From a virus, in IMG/VR virus record IMGVR_UViG_3300048927_000491, positions 1-41,791 of that record: 41,791 nt of DNA. One strand, given 5' to 3'. Shown here piece after piece: positions 222 to 41,508 of this stretch (the stretch's first letter is position 1; every line of letters begins with the position of its first letter). The notes under the pieces are model-generated. The model made no database searches. It was given only the letters and a program-made list of their open reading frames with translations, and was not told where the DNA came from. The position numbers were made by a program, and so were the translations under genes.

Positions 222-452
222 TTAGATGTCCGACGGGTCCGCGACGGGGCGTGAGTTTTTCCACGCCTCAATCACCGTCAGGGGCCAGCCGACACGCTGG
301 TGACTGGTCCGAAGAGGGCGTGGGAACTTGCCCTGGCCCATGAGCCGGTAGATCGTGGACCGGCTTAGGCCAGTCTCGCGCTCGACTTCGGGCCGGGGCA
401 GGAGGCGACCAATAGGTTGCGCGGCCGGTGTTTGGCCTAGGGTGTCAGACAT
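222..452 (-). CDS. AlpA-family small DNA-binding regulator
   Basis: A 76-residue protein with the AlpA/MerR-like helix-turn-helix: LLPRPEVERETGLSRSTIYRLM, then GKFPRPLR and a C-terminal W..VIEAW segment. Members act as transcription regulators or excisionase-like factors of integrative elements. Its position as the last gene of the early operon, against attL, favours a recombination-directionality role. The ATG at 452 is preferred to an in-frame TTG at 467 and overlaps the end of the methyltransferase gene by 8 bp, implying translational coupling. Confidence 0.85.
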   Translation of the reverse strand: MSDTLGQTPAAQPIGRLLPRPEVERETGLSRSTIYRLMGQGKFPRPLRTSHQRVGWPLTVIEAWKNSRPVADPSDI

Positions 453-1194
453 GTCGGGGGCTCTCAACTTGTGCCGCCTGATAGGCAGCGGTGATGCGGG
501 CGACGGCTGTCGCGAAGTGCTTTGGGTTCTTCTCGATTCCGGTGAACACGCGGCCGGCGCCGATCGCGGCGACGCCGGTGCTGCCGGTTCCCATGAACGG
601 GTCGATGATCGTGCGGCCCGAGAGATTGCGGACGATCTTCGCCATGACGTCGAGCGGCTTGACGGTGGCGTGGCCGAAGACCTTCGCCGGCATCGTGCCT
701 GCAGTCACCCAGCGATGCAGGTCGTGGTGCTCGCCGACCGGATGATAGCCGTGGTTCCAAGCGTGGATGTAGGGCTCTACGTCGGCCAGATAGTGCTTGT
801 TGCACATCGGGCTCGGGTTCTTCTTGATCCAGCCCAGCAAGCAGAAGCGCTGGTATCGCTGATTTAGATAGTCGAGCAGCTCGGGAAGCTGATCGTTGTG
901 GCAGAAGACCACGACGGCGCCCGCGCGCATCGGATTGATGATCGACAACGCGAAGCCCTGATCAAGCCCCTCCTGCACGATCATGTCAGCCCCGGTGCGG
1001 CTCTTGCGGAAGGCGCCGCCGCCCCGGTTGTCGAAACGGTACGGCGGATCCATGAACTCGGCATCGAAGAAGCCGAGGCCTGGGCGGATCGCATAGGCGT
1101 CGCCATGGTAGAGGGTGTGCGGCCCGATCCGGACCACGCCAACGTCACCGCCAGCGCTGCCCGGGTCGAGGCCTATGAAGGACGTCTGCATCAT
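445..1194 (-). CDS. DNA methyltransferase, beta-class (N4/N6) type
   Basis: A 249-residue methyltransferase. The catalytic motif DPPY is at about 49-52 and the AdoMet-binding motif FMGTGSTG at about 200-207; catalytic before cofactor motif is the beta-class order. DPPY favours adenine-N6 methylation, though the target is unknown. VKPLDVMAKIVRNLSGRTIIDPF before the cofactor loop is typical of phage DNA methylases. No restriction endonuclease is adjacent, so it is probably a phage DNA-protection enzyme. The start ATG at 1194 overlaps the upstream stop (ATGA). It lies in the early operon directly after a DndC-like gene, which may also act on DNA. Confidence 0.9.
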   Translation of the reverse strand: MMQTSFIGLDPGSAGGDVGVVRIGPHTLYHGDAYAIRPGLGFFDAEFMDPPYRFDNRGGGAFRKSRTGADMIVQEGLDQGFALSIINPMRAGAVVVFCHNDQLPELLDYLNQRYQRFCLLGWIKKNPSPMCNKHYLADVEPYIHAWNHGYHPVGEHHDLHRWVTAGTMPAKVFGHATVKPLDVMAKIVRNLSGRTIIDPFMGTGSTGVAAIGAGRVFTGIEKNPKHFATAVARITAAYQAAQVESPRHV

Positions 1195-2450
1195 GATCCG
1201 ACCAGCTCTCGGAAGAGGATGGGCTCGACACTGCCGTCATTGTTGACCCGGTCGAGCCAGACATCCGCGTTCGGCTCGTCGCCGGTCCACCCGTTCGGCC
1301 AAGTCTTCACCGCGATGAGCTCGCGGATCCGAGCCTCTTCCTCGGCGTCGATCAGGATCATGCCTGGCCGATCGAGACGCTCGGCCGCGTTGTTCACGGC
1401 CGCCTGAATCTGCAGCACGGTCTCAAGTCCCATGAGCCGCGCTTCGAAGGTGAGCGGACCCATGCGCTGCTGGTTGGACTGCAACGTGCCGTCCTTGCGG
1501 TACTGAAAGCCCGGTTGCCGCTTGCGGTGCCGTTCTTTCTTCAGCTCGAGGTAAAGACGCTTGAGGCCGAGCAGGGGGGCGAGGTGCTCCCAACCGGGGA
1601 GGGCAAGGACCGCCGCCAGTGCACCGTCATGCGCGATCAGATTGCAGCCGGTGCAGCCCGTCCGCATGTCCTCTACGCCGCCGTAGCCATCAGCGATCAT
1701 CGGGGTCGGCCAGGCGCCGAACTCGGCCATCGGCGCGAAGACCTTGAGCCAGTCCCACACCATGCAGAGCGTCCAATGATCGATCGGCGCGAAGGTGTCG
1801 CTCAGCTCGCCGGGCAGGTCGGTCTGTAGCCACCCTTGACCGCATTCGGCACCATTGCGCGCGCAGGAAAGATTAATGCGATCGTCGCGGGTCTTCGACT
1901 CACCCCGGCGAACACCGGTCAGCGTCAGGACGCGACCATCTACACCGGCGAGCAGCTCGCCGATCGCCGCGGTCATCGGTTCCACCTTGATCTGCGGGGT
2001 GCACCAGCGGAACGTGTTCGACGGCGGCGGGACGCCGCGGCCGAGCATGTAGACGAAGAACCGCTCGTCCATCGGGGCGCAAACTTCGACGACGCGGATA
2101 CCCATCGCACGCAGGCGAGCCATCATTTCGCGCGCCGCAGCCTGCAGCGGAGGTAGCTCCATGCGGGTGTCCGCATACATAACGGTGATTGATAGTGGTC
2201 GAGGCAGCGCGCCTAGTTCTAGGAGCGTGATGATGACGGAAACGACAGTGGAGCTGTCTTTTCCGCCAGAGTAGGCGAACACCCAATGATCGTAGCCATA
2301 CGCGTGCGCCAGCATGTTCTGGACGGTCCGCGCGACGCACTCGCCAACAGGCATGGCGGAGCCTTGCCCAGAGAACAGGCTGATCTGGGCGCGAGGCTTG
2401 TAACCGACGCTTGCGCCGGCCGCCGCGAGCACGTTGCCGAGTTCAAGCAT
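1191..2450 (-). CDS. DndC/PAPS-reductase-family ATP-pyrophosphatase
   Basis: A 419-residue protein of the adenine-nucleotide alpha-hydrolase fold. The PP-loop SGGKDS is at about 61-66, followed by YADT, RWCTPQIK (C150) and GVRRGES at about 179-185. Cysteines at about 196, 203, 266 and 269 (GCTGC) could hold an iron-sulfur cluster, as in DndC sulfurtransferases. Family members reduce PAPS or move sulfur onto DNA or tRNA; which applies here is not visible. No DndA, B, D or E neighbour is present. The frame runs 57 codons further upstream, but that part is antisense-like and overlaps the PcfJ gene. The ATG at 2450 gives the usual 8-bp overlap. Confidence 0.82.
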   Translation of the reverse strand: MLELGNVLAAAGASVGYKPRAQISLFSGQGSAMPVGECVARTVQNMLAHAYGYDHWVFAYSGGKDSSTVVSVIITLLELGALPRPLSITVMYADTRMELPPLQAAAREMMARLRAMGIRVVEVCAPMDERFFVYMLGRGVPPPSNTFRWCTPQIKVEPMTAAIGELLAGVDGRVLTLTGVRRGESKTRDDRINLSCARNGAECGQGWLQTDLPGELSDTFAPIDHWTLCMVWDWLKVFAPMAEFGAWPTPMIADGYGGVEDMRTGCTGCNLIAHDGALAAVLALPGWEHLAPLLGLKRLYLELKKERHRKRQPGFQYRKDGTLQSNQQRMGPLTFEARLMGLETVLQIQAAVNNAAERLDRPGMILIDAEEEARIRELIAVKTWPNGWTGDEPNADVWLDRVNNDGSVEPILFRELVGS

Positions 2451-3432
2451 TGGCCGTCTCCCGAGCTGCCGCCTGGAAGCGCTTGGCTGCCTTGTACACA
2501 AAGGCCGCCGGCTTCCCGTTGGCGAAGCCTGCGAGCTGGCGGATGCCGGTGACCTTGCTGAACTCCAGCGTGGCCAGTCGGCGTTCCTGGTTGCGGATCG
2601 AGTAGATGGAGCAGCGGCCATCGATGATGTCGCGCAGGTAGCTCGCCACGCAGTGGCGCATCATGCGACCTTCTTCGATCACGGCTGCGGGCGTGCTCAG
2701 CTTGACGAAGTGCAGGCCTTCCTGGCGCCACTCGTCGGGCAGGTCGGAGAAATCCACGACGGTGGACGCTTGGATGCCACCGCCGAGTACGAGCATCTGC
2801 TTTTCGGTCGCAAGGCGATCGTGCCAGAGCTGGGTTTCGGCCATGGCCTTGTCCCACGACCAGCGCTCGTTGCCGGGGTTGGAGACGAGGAAGTCGACCA
2901 CGGCGGCCACTTCGCTTGCCTCGGGCAGATGACGGCTGATCTCACGCGCGGCCCAAGCGAACGGCAGCGAGGCGACCTGAACGCGGCGGTTCTGGACTTC
3001 GTGCCATGTGCCGAGCCGGGAAAGCCAGGTGCGTTGCGCGCCAGGCTTGCCGGGGATCGCGAGCGCGAGTGGCGACGGGTCCAAATGCGCAAGGCGGTAA
3101 ATGGTCGGACGGCAGTTCGGTGAGAGGGCGAAGCCCTGCAGGCGCCGCAGCGGGGTTGGCAATTGGACAGCGGCCATGACGTTGCGCAGGCGCTCGCCGC
3201 GTTCGATGGGCCCGCCAACACGCATCGCGACGTAGAGGTGATCGGACCTTGTCGACTGAGCGGCGCCGAGCGCGCACGCCAGTACCGGCGCTTGGGTCAG
3301 GTAGTCGATTGCGAGCGGGTGCAGCTTGGCGATGAACTCCGCTTGCGGGTGCAGGCCTTGGTTCGGGAACAGCTTTCGTGCTCGGGTGATGACATCGCGC
3401 CGCCAATCGTCAGTGAGCTTCCAATCGGGCAT
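2443..3432 (-). CDS. PcfJ-domain protein
   Basis: A 329-residue protein. Its C-terminal part (about 257-320) carries the PcfJ signature: MMRHCVASY, then GRCSIYSIR, ATLEF and RQLAGFANG. PcfJ-like proteins are found on conjugative plasmids and phages; their biochemical role is not established. The N-terminal 200 residues are rich in Trp and Arg (WKLTDDWRRDV; WHEVQNRRVQVASLPFAWAAREI) and I do not recognise a domain there. The start at 3432 is chosen over an upstream Pro/Ala-rich extension that looks non-coding. It is translationally coupled to the DndC-like gene, hinting at a joint function. Confidence 0.75.
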   Translation of the reverse strand: MPDWKLTDDWRRDVITRARKLFPNQGLHPQAEFIAKLHPLAIDYLTQAPVLACALGAAQSTRSDHLYVAMRVGGPIERGERLRNVMAAVQLPTPLRRLQGFALSPNCRPTIYRLAHLDPSPLALAIPGKPGAQRTWLSRLGTWHEVQNRRVQVASLPFAWAAREISRHLPEASEVAAVVDFLVSNPGNERWSWDKAMAETQLWHDRLATEKQMLVLGGGIQASTVVDFSDLPDEWRQEGLHFVKLSTPAAVIEEGRMMRHCVASYLRDIIDGRCSIYSIRNQERRLATLEFSKVTGIRQLAGFANGKPAAFVYKAAKRFQAAARETANA

Positions 3433-3436
3433 GGGT

Positions 3437-3835
3437 CTACCTGCGTGGGGCGGCGGGCGCGCGGGAGGCGCTGCCTGCGGAGGATTGGCGGGAGTGGGCG
3501 GCGGAGGGCAGCGGGCTGCATTTGGCGGGGCGGCTGACCGGATGGACCGGTACCTTCCGGACAAGGTACCCGCGTGCCGTCAACTCGGCGGCGAGCGCCT
3601 CATCCGAGGCTTGCTTCACAGCCGGGTGACAAAGGCGGATGTTGCGCTTCCGCCCCGCGATGCGAGTGATGTAGCCGAAACCTTCGAGAGCGCTGATGAT
3701 GCGCGCGATCTCGCCAGTGCCACAACCTACCGCCTCGGCGAGTTCGACCGTGTTCGGGCTCGCGCGGCCGGCGGCGATCTCGTCCTCGATAAAGGCGAGC
3801 GCCGCGGCTTGCTTCTCGGTCACGCCGACCCGCAT
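3437..3835 (-). CDS. Winged-helix DNA-binding protein (LexA-N/MarR-like)
   Basis: A 132-residue protein. Residues 1-70 (VTEKQAAALAFIEDEI, then PNTVELAEAVGCGTGEIARIISALEGFGYI) match a winged helix like the LexA N-terminus. A linker and a low-complexity Ser/Ala/Pro/Arg tail follow, without a protease domain, so it is not a self-cleaving repressor. The start ATG shares a base with the stop of the ASCH gene (TGATG), and the stop lies 4 bp before the PcfJ start. A regulator of the downstream modification-type genes is plausible but inferred. Confidence 0.72.
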   Translation of the reverse strand: MRVGVTEKQAAALAFIEDEIAAGRASPNTVELAEAVGCGTGEIARIISALEGFGYITRIAGRKRNIRLCHPAVKQASDEALAAELTARGYLVRKVPVHPVSRPAKCSPLPSAAHSRQSSAGSASRAPAAPRR

Positions 3836-4347
3836 CAAAGTGCTCCCGCCAGCTGCGGCTCGGGCCAGTTCCAGAACTGCTGCGAACCGGGCATGGGCAC
3901 GGGGGCGAGCCACAGTTCGGGGTCGAGCATCGGCCAAGTCCAGACCGCGTGCTTGTCGCGGCTGCTGTCGTTCACGCGGGGCACGCCCAGCTCTTCGGCG
4001 ATCTCCTCTGCGGCGCGCGGTGCGCCGAGCACGACGGTGCCGACGCCGGCGCCGAGGTGCAGCGGCTCTTCGCTGGGCAACCAGGCGCGATCGAGGATCG
4101 GGAGTGCCTTGCCCGCGTCCAGGCATGTCTCGACAACGGCGGGGGGCTGGTTGCGCTTCTCCGGGCCGTCGCGCAGCAGGCAGAAGAGGTCGACTACCTC
4201 GGACTGGTCGATCTTGCGCTTGGCGGCATGGATCACGATGCGCTGGCCGATCATGGCCGTGGGCGGGAGCCAGCGGCGGAACTCGTACGGCTTGGCGCCG
4301 GCGACGATCAGCGAGGCCCACGGCTGTAGGACGGTGAGCGCCTTCAT
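3835..4347 (-). CDS. ASCH-domain protein
   Basis: A 170-residue protein beginning LTVLQPWASLIVAGAKPYEFR, the diagnostic N-terminal strand-helix-strand of ASCH domains, followed by RIVIHAAK and later GTVVLGAP. ASCH proteins have a PUA-like fold and bind RNA or modified nucleotides; some cleave RNA or act on modified bases. No catalytic assignment is possible from sequence. It shares an operon with the PcfJ, DndC-like and methyltransferase genes, so recognition of modified nucleic acid is an attractive guess. It is coupled to a 39-codon gene upstream (ATGA). Confidence 0.85.
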   Translation of the reverse strand: MKALTVLQPWASLIVAGAKPYEFRRWLPPTAMIGQRIVIHAAKRKIDQSEVVDLFCLLRDGPEKRNQPPAVVETCLDAGKALPILDRAWLPSEEPLHLGAGVGTVVLGAPRAAEEIAEELGVPRVNDSSRDKHAVWTWPMLDPELWLAPVPMPGSQQFWNWPEPQLAGAL

Positions 4348-4673: not shown

Positions 4674-4910
4674 TCAGCTCAGGCCCAACGCAGCGCGATA
4701 GGTGTCCAGGAGCATGTCCATTTCCTTGCGATCGTCCGGGTTCATCTTCCGGAGACGCACGATCTGGCGCATGATCTTGGTATCGTAGCCGACGGCTCTT
4801 GCCTCGGCGTAGACGTCCTTCACGTCGTCGCTGATGCCCTTCTTCTCTTCCTCGAGGCGTTCGACGCGCTCGATCAGCAGGCGGAGGCGATCGTCTGTTG
4901 TGGTGGCCAT
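4674..4910 (-). CDS. GapR-like (DUF2312) nucleoid protein
   Basis: A 78-residue protein containing the whole GapR/DUF2312 core: DRLRLLIERVERLEEEKKGI, DVYAEARAVGYD and MRQIVRLRKMNPDDR. GapR in Caulobacter binds overtwisted, AT-rich DNA ahead of polymerases and helps topoisomerases. The length matches cellular GapR (about 80-90). A phage copy could assist phage replication or compete with host GapR. The start at 4910 has AAGGGA upstream; an 18-codon upstream extension lacks similarity and was dropped. Confidence 0.88.
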   Translation of the reverse strand: MATTTDDRLRLLIERVERLEEEKKGISDDVKDVYAEARAVGYDTKIMRQIVRLRKMNPDDRKEMDMLLDTYRAALGLS

Positions 4911-4921
4911 GGGTGGTCCCT

Positions 4922-5116
4922 TCAGAACATCATGATTTGCGGGTCGGGGTTCGACGTGATCCACTCGGCGCGTTCCAGCCGCGCTGCATCGAGGGCCTGC
5001 ACCGCTTCGGTGTGCTCGGCCTCGATGGCGCGCAGGCGCTCTGCCGCGCGGCGCACGCGGCGCTCGGCGAGGCGGACAAGCTCCTCGTGGGCATCAAGGG
5101 TGGGCAGGAGCGGCAC
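4922..5116 (-). CDS. Small helical protein, 64 residues
   Basis: It starts with GTG at 5116, 3 bp after the preceding stop. It is almost entirely predicted helix, with Glu/Arg/Ala heptads (EELVRLAERRVRRAAERLRA), so probably a coiled coil, and it ends NPDPQIMMF. The tight spacing to both neighbours supports expression from the early operon. No homologous family recognised. Confidence 0.5.
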   Translation of the reverse strand: MPLLPTLDAHEELVRLAERRVRRAAERLRAIEAEHTEAVQALDAARLERAEWITSNPDPQIMMF

Positions 5117-6448: not shown

Positions 6449-6702
6449 GCCCGCCGCGCCTTCCACTCGGTGAAGGCTGCGGCATGCGTCGGACACAGAT
6501 CCTTGTCCGGTGCGGGCGACGTTGTGCACCGATCGCAAATCGGCTCGGAGCAGGTGCCCGAAGAATGCACGGTCCCTTCCACCATCTTCCAGTCGCAGAG
6601 AAGTGTCGCACGCTGGCCGCACCGGCATCGTTGGTGCGCCCGCCGTGGACCGCAGACGATGGCGCGTGTGCCGTTGGGCAAGGTGACGTGCTCGCACGCC
6701 AT
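6445..6702 (-). CDS. Small zinc-binding protein
   Basis: An 85-residue protein with cysteine pairs: CRCGQRATLLCDW, then CSEPICDRC and CPTH. They probably hold one or two zinc ions. The ATG at 6702 overlaps the Cro-like stop. The longer frame adds 14 residues that lie inside the upstream gene. Similar short zinc proteins are common in phage early regions. Function unknown. Confidence 0.6.
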   Translation of the reverse strand: MACEHVTLPNGTRAIVCGPRRAHQRCRCGQRATLLCDWKMVEGTVHSSGTCSEPICDRCTTSPAPDKDLCPTHAAAFTEWKARRA

Positions 6703-7013
6703 CACGCGGCGTCCCTTGCTTGCGTTCCGGCCTGCGGATTGCAAGCGACGGTTGAATCAGTTTCTTCTACTTCGATCGGCACGCCTGAGGCGGGCAGCGT
6801 AGAGGGGTAAAGGTCAGGGCGGAGATGGTGACGGGACACGCCGGTCTCCGCTTCAATGCGAAGGACGTATTCGGCGGGGACCCTCTTGGAGCTTTGCAGC
6901 CACTTCCAGACTGCAGGCTGTCCAACGCCGCAAAGGCGCGCCATCGCGGACTGAGAACCTGCGGTTTCGACAGCCAGCTGAAGGGCCTCGAACGGAGTTA
7001 AGGCATCGGACAT
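6702..7013 (-). CDS. YdaS/Cro-like repressor
   Basis: A 103-residue protein. FEALQLAVETAGSQSAMARLCGVGQPAVWKWL followed by KRVPAEYVLRIEAETGVSRHHLRPDLYP is the YdaS/Cro helix-turn-helix pattern. It is the first gene leftward from the CI/Cro control region and heads the early operon, so it should act as Cro. The ATG lies 10 bp from the palindromic operator. YdaS is sometimes called an antitoxin, but no YdaT partner is present. The acidic/Ala tail looks disordered. Confidence 0.85.
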   Translation of the reverse strand: MSDALTPFEALQLAVETAGSQSAMARLCGVGQPAVWKWLQSSKRVPAEYVLRIEAETGVSRHHLRPDLYPSTLPASGVPIEVEETDSTVACNPQAGTQARDAA

Positions 7014-7022
7014 ACCCGCTTT

Positions 7023-7067
7023 ATAGACATGTCTATTCCTCGCGCAATAGACATTTCAAGCTATGAT
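7023..7067. promoter_or_regulatory. CI/Cro operator and divergent promoter region
   Basis: ATAGACATGTCTAT at 7023-7036 is a perfect 14-bp palindrome. The half-site ATAGACAT recurs at 7047-7054. On the minus strand TTGAAA (7059-7054) is followed by 17-18 bp and an ATAGAC-like -10 inside the palindrome, a likely early promoter. On the plus strand TATGAT (7062-7067) is a candidate -10 for the repressor. Both would be blocked by proteins on these sites. Confidence 0.65.
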
Positions 7068-7097
7068 CCTATTCCAACGGTTATAGGGTCGAGTCCA

Positions 7098-7760
7098 ATG
7101 GGGATGGGCGACCGCATTCGTGATCGGCTTGAGGCACTTACCATGTCTCAGGCGGAGCTTGCCCGTCGTGTCGGGATATCACAGCCAAGCGTAAATCATC
7201 TGATCAAGCGCGGTGCTGCCGGCTCCTCTCACCTCCACAAGATTGCGCGCGCTCTCCAGACCACCCCTGCCTATCTGACCGGTGAGACAGACGATCCGAG
7301 TGAAGGTGCTCTTCCTGCGCCTACGCCCCAGCTGATCGCCGAGCAGCTCGGGATGACGCTTATCCCCGAGATCGACCTGCACTTCGCCCTCGGCGGAGGT
7401 AGCTTCGTCGAAGGGCCGGTGACCACGACGATGGTGCCTTACCGCACCGACTGGCTGAATCGGATCACGCGCGGCCTGCCGGCAGACATTTTCCTGACTC
7501 AGGGCGACGGCGATTCGATGATCCCGACGATCCTCGATGGCGACGATGTGATCGTGAACCGCGCGGAGCGCACCATTACGAGGCAGGATAAAATCTGGGC
7601 GGTCGGCTACGGCGACTTCGTAGCGATCAAGCGCGTCCGCCGCCTTGCCAACGGCACATACCAGCTGATGAGCGACAATCCCGTCGTCACGCCGATCGAG
7701 GCCGTCGAGGACGAACTGCGCGTAATCGGCCGCGTCGTCTGGATCGGGCGGCGCATGTAA
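7098..7760 (+). CDS. CI-like repressor, HTH plus S24 LexA-type domain
   Basis: A 220-residue prophage repressor. The N-terminal helix-turn-helix (MSQAELARRVGISQPSVNHLIKRG) precedes an S24 peptidase-like domain, with the catalytic serine in GDGDSMIPT and the lysine in FVAIKRV. Both residues are kept, so RecA-stimulated autocleavage is possible; a clear Ala-Gly cleavage site is not obvious (ALGGG is the nearest). Starting at 7098 keeps the operator outside the gene. An in-frame ATG at 7029 would put the palindrome within the coding region, and one at 7104 is also possible. It opens a rightward operon with the HIRAN gene (TAATG overlap). Confidence 0.92.
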   Translation: MGMGDRIRDRLEALTMSQAELARRVGISQPSVNHLIKRGAAGSSHLHKIARALQTTPAYLTGETDDPSEGALPAPTPQLIAEQLGMTLIPEIDLHFALGGGSFVEGPVTTTMVPYRTDWLNRITRGLPADIFLTQGDGDSMIPTILDGDDVIVNRAERTITRQDKIWAVGYGDFVAIKRVRRLANGTYQLMSDNPVVTPIEAVEDELRVIGRVVWIGRRM

Positions 7761-8179
7761 TGCCGCCGGCGGCGATGTCTCTCGCGGTGGTAGGCGCCAA
7801 GCACAAGAATGCCGACGGTTCCGATCGCGAGCTGGAGATCGAGGCGTGCGCGCCCGGCGAGCCGGTCGAGTTGGTGCCCGAGCCGGAAAACGAGCACGAT
7901 CCGCATGCCATCGCGGTCTTCTCCGAGCGTGGCGTACAGCTGGGCTACATTTCGGCAGAGCGGGCACCCCGCATCGGGAGCTTCATGGCCGAGCACGACA
8001 TTATCGCGGTGTTCCAGCGCCCGTCCGAGTTCGGTGCCTGGATACGCGCGTCTTTCGATGGCGAGCCGCCGGTGCTGACGCCCGCGATGCTGATCGCAAA
8101 GGACGAGGAGCCGCCAAGCTGGGGCGAGCAGCACGGCGAGCCCGACTTCTATCCGGATGAGATTTGGCCTGACGATTGA
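7760..8179 (+). CDS. HIRAN-domain protein
   Basis: A 139-residue protein whose residues 8-80 form a HIRAN domain: AVVGAKH, ELVPEPENEHDPHAIAVF and GVQLGYIS. HIRAN domains bind 3' ends of single-stranded DNA in HLTF/Rad5-type remodellers. Here the domain stands alone with an acidic C-terminal tail. The start overlaps the repressor's stop, so it should be expressed in the lysogen. A role in sensing damaged DNA or foreign ends is possible but inferred. Confidence 0.85.
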   Translation: MPPAAMSLAVVGAKHKNADGSDRELEIEACAPGEPVELVPEPENEHDPHAIAVFSERGVQLGYISAERAPRIGSFMAEHDIIAVFQRPSEFGAWIRASFDGEPPVLTPAMLIAKDEEPPSWGEQHGEPDFYPDEIWPDD

Positions 8180-8918: not shown

Positions 8919-8942
8919 CTGTGCCTAATGCGGGGTACTCCG

Positions 8943-10625
8943 ATGTCCGTAGCTGACCAGATATCATTACAGCTGCCATATCTCCGGAGGTTTGCTCGAA
9001 CTCTGCGGGGGACGCAATCAGCGGGCGACGCGTTGGTTCGAGCATTGCTAGAAACCGCGCTTGCCGACCAGATCTTGCGCGCAGAAATAGCTGAAGATCG
9101 AGCCTTATTGTATAAAAATCTGCTGCGCAAAGATATCGAGATGCCAGCTAATCTTGATGTCGCACCTGGGGATAATAGCTTAGATCGAAGCCGGATCGCT
9201 CTGTTGCTCACAACAGTTGAGGAGTTTAGCGGGGAAGAGGCAGCGTTAATTCTTGGTGTCGATGAAGAGGAGGTTGAGCGGTTAGTCGCACGGAGCATTG
9301 CCGAGATCGAAAATAGATCGCGAACAAGTGTTTTGATTATCGAAGATGAGCCGCTTATTTCTATGCAGCTTGATGGCATTGTTTCCGAACTTGGCCATAA
9401 AGTTATCGGAATTGCTGCCACACGTGACCAAGCAGTTTCGATGGCATCAAATGAGCTGCCAGGGCTTGTCATTGCTGACATCGCGTTAGCGGACGGCAGC
9501 TCGGGGATCGATGCGGTCAAAGATATCCTAAGCGTAGGCAACGTACCAATTATATTCGTGACCGCTTATCCCGAACGATTACTAACCGAAGAACGTCCGG
9601 AACCTACCTACCTTGTCACCAAGCCTTTCCAAGAGTTCACAGTCCGGAACGCAATATCCCAAGCATTATTTGCTCGTACTCTCTCGGCTGAGGAACATGA
9701 CCGAGAAAGCGAGATTTCTGATAAAGATAATGACGATTATACATCGCTGGAAGCTGCTCGCAGCTCGCGCTCTGCGATCGCGATACGGGAGCTTGCGAGC
9801 GCTAATCTGCGTGCTGCTCCAGGACCTCTCGATGCTGATGTTGTCGGCGGACGCTTAACGCTATCCCAATCTGAGCAAGGAAGAGCGACAACTTCACTGG
9901 CCAATTTGGAGGTGTTGAGGGAGCTACATGCCGAGACAGCTGATCAACTCCTATCGGATACACTTTCTAATAGTGCGCCACCGGGCGTAAGAAGACGAGT
10001 TGCGACGATACGCCGGGCGTTGACACATCCATTTAGCGATGCGTCAGGAACCTCAATAGGTGTGCAGGCCATCGGCCTAAGGAAGGTTGTCGAGGCATCA
10101 CGGGAAATGCTGCTCGAAGAGCAAATCGGAGATTTGTTCATATTTGCAGATGACCTGCATGATCTGGCTTGGAGATTTCCGAGTTTTCAAGATTTCAGGG
10201 CAGGTGCCGAAGAAGTCTCTACCCTCACAGATGAAGGTAGAAGCGCGTTAATTCAGGCGTCTAAGGTTATCGAAGAAGCGCCGGATACATCGGTTGACCC
10301 CGCGATTAAGCAAGAACTTTCCGCAATCAGGGAGGATGCTGAAGAGCAGAGAGACAGCTTGGCGGATTTAGCGTTAATACGTTCACTGGGTAATATCTGG
10401 CGCAGCATAGGACGCGTAATACAAGCGCGGGTCGATGGCGTTAAATCGCAGGCAATTAAAACGTTTGATGAAGATCTCGGAAAGACCCTTGGTCAAATTC
10501 CATCTTATCTTCTTAAAGGCGGGGCACTATTGACCGCCGCTCATTACGTCCCTGGAGAACTGGGAGTTGCAATAGCGGTAGCAGGTGCTTGGACGGCGCT
10601 TACCAAAAAGGATAAAGATGACTGA
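8943..10625 (+). CDS. phyR: PhyR-like anti-anti-sigma response regulator with long C-terminal extension
   Basis: A 560-residue protein. Residues 1-125 form the sigma-like domain of PhyR (LQLPYLRRFARTLRGTQSAG; LLLTTVEEFSGEEAALILGV). Residues 128-245 form the receiver (VLIIEDEPLISMQL; LVIADIALADGSSGIDAV; VTAYPERLLT; LVTKPF), with acid pocket, phospho-acceptor Asp (about 179), Thr and Lys all kept. PhyR normally ends near 265-270; here about 300 residues follow, helical, unrecognised, with a hydrophobic segment near the end (YLLKGGALLTAAHYVPGELGVAIAVAGAW). Phosphorylated PhyR sequesters NepR and frees the general-stress sigma factor EcfG. The start at 8943 matches the family N-terminus. The gene ends 6 bp from the converging D gene. 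Cargo of the lysogeny operon. Confidence 0.88.
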   Translation: MSVADQISLQLPYLRRFARTLRGTQSAGDALVRALLETALADQILRAEIAEDRALLYKNLLRKDIEMPANLDVAPGDNSLDRSRIALLLTTVEEFSGEEAALILGVDEEEVERLVARSIAEIENRSRTSVLIIEDEPLISMQLDGIVSELGHKVIGIAATRDQAVSMASNELPGLVIADIALADGSSGIDAVKDILSVGNVPIIFVTAYPERLLTEERPEPTYLVTKPFQEFTVRNAISQALFARTLSAEEHDRESEISDKDNDDYTSLEAARSSRSAIAIRELASANLRAAPGPLDADVVGGRLTLSQSEQGRATTSLANLEVLRELHAETADQLLSDTLSNSAPPGVRRRVATIRRALTHPFSDASGTSIGVQAIGLRKVVEASREMLLEEQIGDLFIFADDLHDLAWRFPSFQDFRAGAEEVSTLTDEGRSALIQASKVIEEAPDTSVDPAIKQELSAIREDAEEQRDSLADLALIRSLGNIWRSIGRVIQARVDGVKSQAIKTFDEDLGKTLGQIPSYLLKGGALLTAAHYVPGELGVAIAVAGAWTALTKKDKDD

Positions 10626-19195: not shown

Positions 19196-20029
19196 TTACA
19201 GGTCGTTTGCAGGCAGCGGGAAGTTGCTGATGAGCACCTCGCCAGCTGCGCGTGCCTTTGAGCCGATTGTGTAAGTGGTAGCGATCGGCGCAACGATGAA
19301 GCAGCCGAAGGTCTCTCGCACCCCATCGTTGTCGTTAAGCGACATCAGGAACTTACCCTTGATGCCCGCGAGCTGCTCGGCGAGCTGGGCGAAGTCCGTG
19401 CGGCTGAAGACGCCGGGGCCATAGTCGGCCTCGCATGCCCAGTAGGGCGGATCGAGGTAGAGCAGCGCGCCTTCGCGATCGTAGCGGCGGATGAAGTCGG
19501 CGTAAGGCAGGCGCTCGATTACGACCGCCTGAAGGCGATCGTGGATCTCCGCGAGCATCGGCTCCAGCTTGCCCACGTCGAAACGCGCCGGTGCGGATGC
19601 GTCCACGCCGAAGTTGCGGCCGGAGACCTTGCCGCCAAACGCCAGGCGCTGGACGTAGAGGAAGCGCACGGCGCGCTGCAGGTCGGTGAGGCGATCGGGA
19701 TCGAGGCCGAGCAGCCGTTCGAACTCGGCCCGGCTTGCGACGCGGAAGCGCAGCATGTCGACCAAGTACGGGTAGTGCTCGGCCAGACAGCGGAAGAGCG
19801 TGACGACGTCGCCCGAGATGTCGTTGATCGCCTCAGCGCGAGGCCGGCGGCTGCGACGCAGGAAGATGCCGCCCATGCCCACGAAGGGCTCGGCATAGCT
19901 GCTGTGCGGCGTCGCATCGATGATGGCGCAGATGCGCTTGGCCAGATTGCGCTTGCCGCCGATGTAACCGGCGGCGGGAGAGACCGGGCGCACGGGTGCG
20001 AGATCGGTCGGAACAAAAGCGGTAGACAT
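19196..20029 (-). CDS. dam: DNA adenine methyltransferase, Dam/D12 class
   Basis: A 277-residue alpha-class adenine methyltransferase: GYIGGKRNLAKRI (motif X), AEPFVGMGGIFLRRS (motif I), NDISGDV and LYLDPPYWACE (catalytic motif IV). The target is probably a short palindrome, but specificity cannot be read. No endonuclease is present. AGGA lies 8 bp before the ATG at 20029; the 39-codon upstream extension is rejected. It lies beside the ATPase gene in the variable locus, so it could protect phage DNA or be cargo. It is unrelated in class to the methyltransferase at 445-1194. Confidence 0.92.
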   Translation of the reverse strand: MSTAFVPTDLAPVRPVSPAAGYIGGKRNLAKRICAIIDATPHSSYAEPFVGMGGIFLRRSRRPRAEAINDISGDVVTLFRCLAEHYPYLVDMLRFRVASRAEFERLLGLDPDRLTDLQRAVRFLYVQRLAFGGKVSGRNFGVDASAPARFDVGKLEPMLAEIHDRLQAVVIERLPYADFIRRYDREGALLYLDPPYWACEADYGPGVFSRTDFAQLAEQLAGIKGKFLMSLNDNDGVRETFGCFIVAPIATTYTIGSKARAAGEVLISNFPLPANDL

Positions 20030-20132
20030 GTAGGATTTCCTGCAAGAAATGACCCGACGCGGCACGCCGTGAAGGGGAACTCGATAGGCAGGCGCGCTGC
20101 CCTGAGGGTGCGAGTTCAGGCTCGCGGCTTTT

Positions 20133-20171
20133 GGATGTGGGGACATCCGAAGTCCCCCTTCTTACAGGGGG
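20133..20171 (-). terminator. Tandem hairpins after the fibre operon
   Basis: GGATGT-GGGG-ACATCC (20133-20148) and CCCCCT-TCTTAC-AGGGGG (20154-20171) are perfect hairpins with 6-bp stems. They lie between the last small gene of the fibre operon and the Dam leader. Neither has a U-tract, so termination is a guess; a regulatory role for dam is possible. The rest of 20030-20208 shows no gene. Confidence 0.35.

Positions 20172-41432: not shown

Positions 41433-41508
<76 letters not shown>

Follow-up and report, generated by a model that had tools for sequence, protein, structure and literature searches.

The DNA analysed here comprises the 41,791 bases of an IMG/VR virus record (IMGVR_UViG_3300048927_000491; 'the window' denotes this whole stretch), in which five tightly packed minus-strand genes at positions 445-4347 include one for a DndC-like PP-loop ATPase with cysteines of the iron-sulfur (Fe-S) type, directly adjoining a DNA methyltransferase gene. 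The window phage is temperate and carries P2-like structural genes (baseplate hub GPD, tail sheath, tape measure, small and large terminase, portal) together with a C1/S24-type repressor. Divergently from the repressor gene runs an early operon that leads from a Cro-like gene through GapR and the five genes to an AlpA-like gene (Table 1). Judged by the DndC-like protein, the nearest relatives are sphingomonad phages and prophages. A first-pass annotation made from the sequence alone had described the five genes as overlapping and as possibly acting together; all five were confirmed, and overlaps are present at the ASCH/winged-helix (4 nucleotides, nt), PcfJ/DndC-like (8 nt) and DndC-like/methyltransferase (4 nt, ATGA) junctions, but the winged-helix and PcfJ genes are separated by a 4 nt gap. 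The methyltransferase and AlpA-like genes overlap by 8 nt, so that four of the five junctions, counting this one, overlap by 4-8 nt.

The start of the DndC-like gene was placed at 2450 rather than 2621, since the mechanical open reading frame extends upstream into the PcfJ gene, which itself probably starts at 3432. Family profiles recognized the PcfJ protein (PF14284, 47 bits, cut-off 25), the methyltransferase (PF01555, 46.3 bits, cut-off 26.7), in which MDPPY precedes DPFMGTGSTG in the DPPY-then-FxGxG order, and the DndC-like protein (PAPS_reduct PF01507, 40.5 bits, cut-off 22.5). The ASCH protein scored 20.4 bits against PF04266, for which the cut-off is 21.2, and matched phrog_3193 at 1e-25, with the GxKxxExR motif present. 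The winged-helix protein resembles the DNA-binding domain of LexA (TIGR00498, 1e-6).

Table 1. Early operon and other features of the window (positions in the 41,791-base record; aa, amino acids)
Feature	Coordinates	Strand	Remarks
AlpA-like excisionase/regulator	222..452	-	PF05930, 8.7e-13; last operon gene, outside the module
Beta-class N6-adenine (or N4-cytosine) DNA methyltransferase	445..1194	-	249 aa; motif IV DPPY, motif I DPFMGTGSTG
DndC-like PP-loop ATPase, putative Fe-S sulfurtransferase	1191..2450	-	419 aa; phrog_12882; PP-loop SGGKDS at 61-66
PcfJ-domain protein	2443..3432	-	329 aa; PF14284
LexA-type winged-helix protein without S24 peptidase	3437..3838	-	133 aa; likely operon regulator
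ASCH-domain (PUA-like) protein	3835..4347	-	170 aa; phrog_3193; motif G-A-K-P-Y-E-F-R (ASCH G-x-K-x-x-E-x-R)
GapR-like DNA-binding protein	4674..4964	-	PF10073; upstream of ASCH
Cro-like gene	6702..7013	-	
C1/S24-type repressor	7029..7760	+	
HIRAN-domain protein	7760..8179	+	directly 3' of the S24 repressor
PhyR-like protein	8928..10625	+	565 aa; NF006623, 285 bits, cut-off 240
DNA methyltransferase, D12/Dam type	19196..20146	-	PF02086, 8.7e-19; among tail genes
tRNA-Thr (TGT)	41433..41508	-	close to the right end of the record

Identity and anatomy of the DndC-like protein

The DndC-like protein belongs to phrog_12882, a family annotated as 'PAPS reductase/cysH' that was matched in 352 viral contigs; full-length relatives of the window gene share 50-83% identity with it. 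The family profile covered the window protein from profile position 9 to 403 of 404 (E = 5e-157) and matched all of 60 diverse members, as did PRK06850 and the DndC model TIGR03183 (best 2e-37), whereas a CysH profile was matched at 1e-3 by two of the 60. The window protein itself scored 121 bits against TIGR03183 (E = 4e-35), which is below the curated equivalog cut-off of 290 bits, and 13.2 bits against NCBIfam CysH NF002537 (E = 0.05; cut-off 154 bits). In a profile alignment, Salmonella DndC matched over 321 columns at 29% identity (E = 7e-25), a stretch that reached through the C-terminal helical part. Furthermore, none of the 60 sequences has a conserved cysteine after residue 269 and thus the C-terminal catalytic ECG(L/I)H-type motif of CysH is missing; the ECGQGW of the window protein lies at 202-207, in mid-protein. 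The protein is best classified with the DndC branch of PP-loop ATPases, in a subfamily outside the Dnd system.

An AlphaFold model (pLDDT 80, pTM 0.81) showed a confidently predicted PP-loop domain followed by a helical C-terminal part; confidence was low for the cysteine loops 182-206 and 259-268. Structural matches included the [4Fe-4S] thiolases NcsA (Z 12.2, root-mean-square deviation 4.4, 201 aligned residues) and TtuA (Z 11.2, 3.9, 197), but many PP-loop enzymes were found at similar Z, among them NAD, GMP and FAD synthases, and PAPS reductase also matched. A sequence search of the PDB for DndC-like relatives gave none that was convincing.

When 40 phage-family proteins were aligned with 10 genuine DndC proteins, C150, C266 and C269 of the window protein aligned with DndC C146, C280 and C283 and were conserved in all sequences of both groups. 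The predicted cluster ligands of DndC are C146, C273, C280 and C283 (PMC12193691). At the positions of DndC C262 and C273 the phage family has a gap or alanine, while C196, C203 and C229 are present in all 40 phage proteins and absent from DndC. The predicted DNA-specificity loop of DndC, G135-W145 (PMC12193691), with the sequence GYPAPTRSFRW, has a recognizable counterpart in the phage family, GVPPPSNTFRW. For DndD binding, residues 433-482 and the last helix of DndC are the predicted interface, supported by mutants (PMC12193691); the phage protein ends near aligned DndC residue 450, about where this interface begins, and the C-terminal helix is absent.

The first-pass annotation had also stated that Dnd partners and an endonuclease are lacking. 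This was borne out in that neither DndD nor a cysteine desulfurase was found in the 41.8 kb record, which may be incomplete, and scans of ~35 window proteins against family libraries revealed no endonuclease domain; the methyltransferase has no nuclease beside it. Among 49 bacterial genomes carrying the DndC-like gene, DndD exceeded the model cut-off in one and fell just below it in one more. Thus, the DndC-like protein must work, if at all, without Dnd. One reappraisal states that host IscS can supply sulfur in Dnd systems (PMC10853773); by analogy, IscS could do so for the phage protein.

Two apparent fusions were rejected. PADLOC model PDLC03333 ('MTase_II') matched the N-terminus of the DndC-like protein as if a methylase were fused to it, but the members of this likely misnamed model are ordinary DndC proteins; likewise, long DndC-like open frames in relatives represent read-through upstream sequence. 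Pseudomonas DndC-like proteins (L035, L047, L048, L060, L138) have about 60 extra N-terminal residues (MTTKAVFAPDDEVSFLYREKHRCRGIV...), which may form a small beta-barrel nucleic-acid-binding domain.

Linkage with DNA methyltransferases and other neighbours

Relatives of the DndC-like gene were collected from viral and bacterial contigs (160 in total, with the viral contigs represented by the best 80 of 352) and from cultured phages. Of 44 phage records, 24 have a methylase no more than 2.5 kb away from the DndC-like gene, compared with 8.3 expected from random placement, a test that ignores clustering in the early region. For this reason, loci around the phage SSB gene, another early gene, were assembled in the same way as a control. 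Among non-redundant loci, searched with profiles that were trained on both sets and had seeds from DndC-like neighbourhoods, 40 of 68 DndC-like loci had a methylase on the same strand at a distance of up to 2.5 kb, as did 12 of 70 SSB loci (Fisher p = 5e-7); for distances of up to 1 kb the counts were 30 of 68 and 5 of 70 (p = 4e-7). An independent comparison with Pfam models agreed, detecting a C5 or N4/N6 methylase in 34 of the 44 non-redundant phage records (32 over the Pfam cut-off) and in 14 of 44 SSB records. Up to 8 kb from the DndC-like gene, almost every methylase is encoded on the strand of that gene.

The adjoining methylases are of unrelated classes, C5 and N4/N6. On a FastTree phylogeny of the DndC-like proteins the methylase state (C5, N, both or none, the last including contig ends) changed 33 times, and the mean for shuffled labels was 32.1. 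Thus, different methylases have been paired with the DndC-like gene repeatedly and independently. In Microcystis phage Mae-JY29 (L003) the adjoining methylase is 61% identical to that of the window; the pair is also found in the cultured Pseudomonas phage Dobby and Rhizobium phages RR1-A and RHph_N28_2. In another locus (L046), the C5 methylase encoded upstream of the DndC-like gene contains tandem 'ADPR' repeats in an extended central region, which may comprise several target-recognition units.

Relatives of the window ASCH protein occur in 17 of 169 loci, all on the same strand and nine of them within 500 bp; enrichment over the SSB control was marginal (6/68 versus 1/80, p = 0.048). ASCH, DndC-like and methylase genes adjoin one another in L010 and, differently ordered, in Mae-JY29, whose ASCH protein is 46% identical to that of the window. 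ASCH is thus an occasional third member of the pair, and in PMC10853773 it is termed a modified-DNA-binding domain. PcfJ was rejected as a member, being found in none of 44 related phage records and, 3 kb from the DndC-like gene, in one other lineage only, a Methylobacterium prophage (L075/L108); a tblastn search of phage records with the window PcfJ gave no match and a scan of viral contigs only a 98% identical variant. The window winged-helix protein was found elsewhere only in a near-identical phage (L170). Of the five genes that the first-pass annotation had grouped as one set, co-occurrence therefore held for the DndC-like and methyltransferase genes and, in a minority of loci, ASCH, but not for PcfJ and the winged-helix gene: the recurrent core is the DndC-like gene with a DNA methyltransferase, not a conserved five-gene system.

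ASCH, DUF5131, integrase and other accessory genes recur near the DndC-like gene, and the recurrent neighbours include no sulfate-assimilation genes. DUF5131 (PF07505) is encoded nearby in six loci, in one of which (L012) it lies two genes upstream of the DndC-like gene. About 17 related loci likewise encode GapR several kb or less from the DndC-like gene. Elsewhere in the window (Table 1), the first 250 residues of the PhyR-like protein represent a PhyR-family anti-anti-sigma response regulator, followed by an extra 300-residue extension, making it a phage-borne copy of the alphaproteobacterial general stress response regulator. A second DNA methyltransferase and a HIRAN-domain protein are also encoded, and the tRNA-Thr gene may mark an attachment site.

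Possible functions of the gene pair

The DndC-like protein is best read as representing a subfamily of stand-alone Fe-S PP-loop sulfurtransferases that form part of phage DNA-modification or anti-restriction cassettes, with DNA as the presumed substrate; that the two-gene core constitutes such a cassette is a tentative proposal to which we give slightly less than an even chance. A [4Fe-4S] cluster would be held by C150, C266 and C269, and sulfur would be taken from a host cysteine desulfurase (IscS/SufS). The acceptor would be adenylated and then thiolated independently of the DndD/DndE machinery, on which normal DndC depends. Because of the DndC ancestry and the company of DNA methylases, the most likely acceptor would be phage DNA, either base or backbone. 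The adjoining methyltransferase would independently add ordinary methyl marks, and both modifications together could broaden protection from host restriction. The alternation of C5, N4/N6 and no methylase makes a pathway that uses the methylase product as substrate unlikely and argues for two parallel modifications. Where present, ASCH may act as an accessory binder of nucleic acid (modified bases), while PcfJ and the winged-helix protein would be lineage-specific operon passengers.

In its widest form the proposal would be that Dnd-independent DNA thiolation is widespread in phages, with one Fe-S PP-loop enzyme and interchangeable methylases evading restriction, and that many phage 'cysH auxiliary metabolic genes' are DNA-modification enzymes; this we regard as possible but doubtful. 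Members of the family are common in phages, where genes of the same database name have been interpreted as sulfate assimilation; if DNA is modified, one class of genes claimed as sulfur auxiliary metabolic genes would have been misread. A thiolation enzyme needing no DndD/DndE machinery would also be informative on DndC biochemistry and a candidate anti-restriction strategy, directly testable in the cultured phages carrying the pair. We found no mention of a phage DndC branch in the passages retrieved from Dnd and BREX reappraisals (PMC10853773, PMC12839542, PMC12707154); as the search covered part of the literature, we claim no priority.

Several observations weigh against a DNA-modification cassette. 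The predicted fourth cluster cysteine of DndC, C273, has no counterpart in the phage family, and the extra cysteines C196, C203 and C229 might bind zinc or form disulfides. As NAD, GMP and FAD synthases score as high in the fold search, the fold does not tell whether the substrate is DNA, tRNA or a small molecule. In addition, 41% of non-redundant relatives have no recognized methylase within 2.5 kb, some of these being contig ends or having other methylase types, and a passive anti-defence or moron island would likewise account for the interchangeable methylase classes. In such an island the DndC-like gene and the methylases would share an early accessory slot, each being retained for a benefit of its own, and the substrate of the DndC-like protein may not be DNA. 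This explanation, which we consider rather unlikely though the most serious competitor, would agree with methylase states that change along the tree with the frequency of shuffled labels, with the many relatives devoid of a methylase and with the other accessory genes recurring nearby; methylase linkage about 3- to 6-fold above that around SSB, and the shared strand of nearly all methylases within 8 kb, speak against it.

Thiolation of tRNA or nucleotides in the manner of TtuA, NcsA or TtcA, which might aid phage translation or evade tRNA-cleaving defences, would explain the PP-loop and three-cysteine [4Fe-4S] anatomy and the presence of NcsA and TtuA among the structural matches, but appears improbable given that the nearest protein by sequence, DndC, is a DNA enzyme and that the linkage is to DNA methylases rather than to genes for tRNAs or tRNA-modification enzymes. 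The shared catalytic core would likewise allow the protein to supply or poison DndC function in a phosphorothioating host, as an accessory or decoy through which phage DNA passes DndFGH or SspE restriction. This we judge very unlikely in view of the missing DndD-docking region and, in a survey confined to DndD, the scarcity of DndD in carrier genomes. Least probable of all, with hardly any weight in our assessment, is a PAPS reductase boosting cysteine synthesis. The phage records are so annotated and phage PAPS reductases, which may or may not belong to phrog_12882, have been interpreted as serving sulfate assimilation (PMC5463345, PMC11309003, PMC7785012, PMC6145125); the CysH score far below cut-off, the cysteine pattern and the neighbourhood described above all speak against such a role.

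Comparison with known systems

CysH (PAPS/APS reductase) shares the PP-loop fold and its name has been given to the phage genes, but its profile barely detects the phage protein, which has neither its C-terminal catalytic cysteine motif nor sulfate-assimilation neighbours. The tRNA thiolases TtuA, NcsA and TtcA combine a PP-loop with a three-cysteine [4Fe-4S] site, which can leave one iron free for carrying sulfide; the phage protein is nearest to DndC by sequence and has no tRNA-related neighbours. SspD and BrxP, the DndC relatives of SSP and type 4 BREX, have the same PP-loop sulfurtransferase core but matched the phage protein more weakly (36 and 51 bits, compared with 128 for DndC), and no DUF4007, SspB/C or BREX genes were seen among the window proteins scanned. 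The window methylase, an ordinary beta-class DPPY enzyme without a nuclease, is comparable to orphan phage DNA methyltransferases, from which the recurrent pairing with a DndC-like gene sets it apart. DndC itself is the closest counterpart, sharing the PP-loop SGGKDS, the three cluster cysteines, the FRWCT loop and, as far as about DndC residue 397, the helical C-terminal part. The phage protein differs in having no DndD-docking C-terminus and no equivalents of C262 and C273, in its own cysteines C196, C203 and C229, and in the company of its gene, from which DndD is missing and in which a DNA methylase is the usual neighbour.

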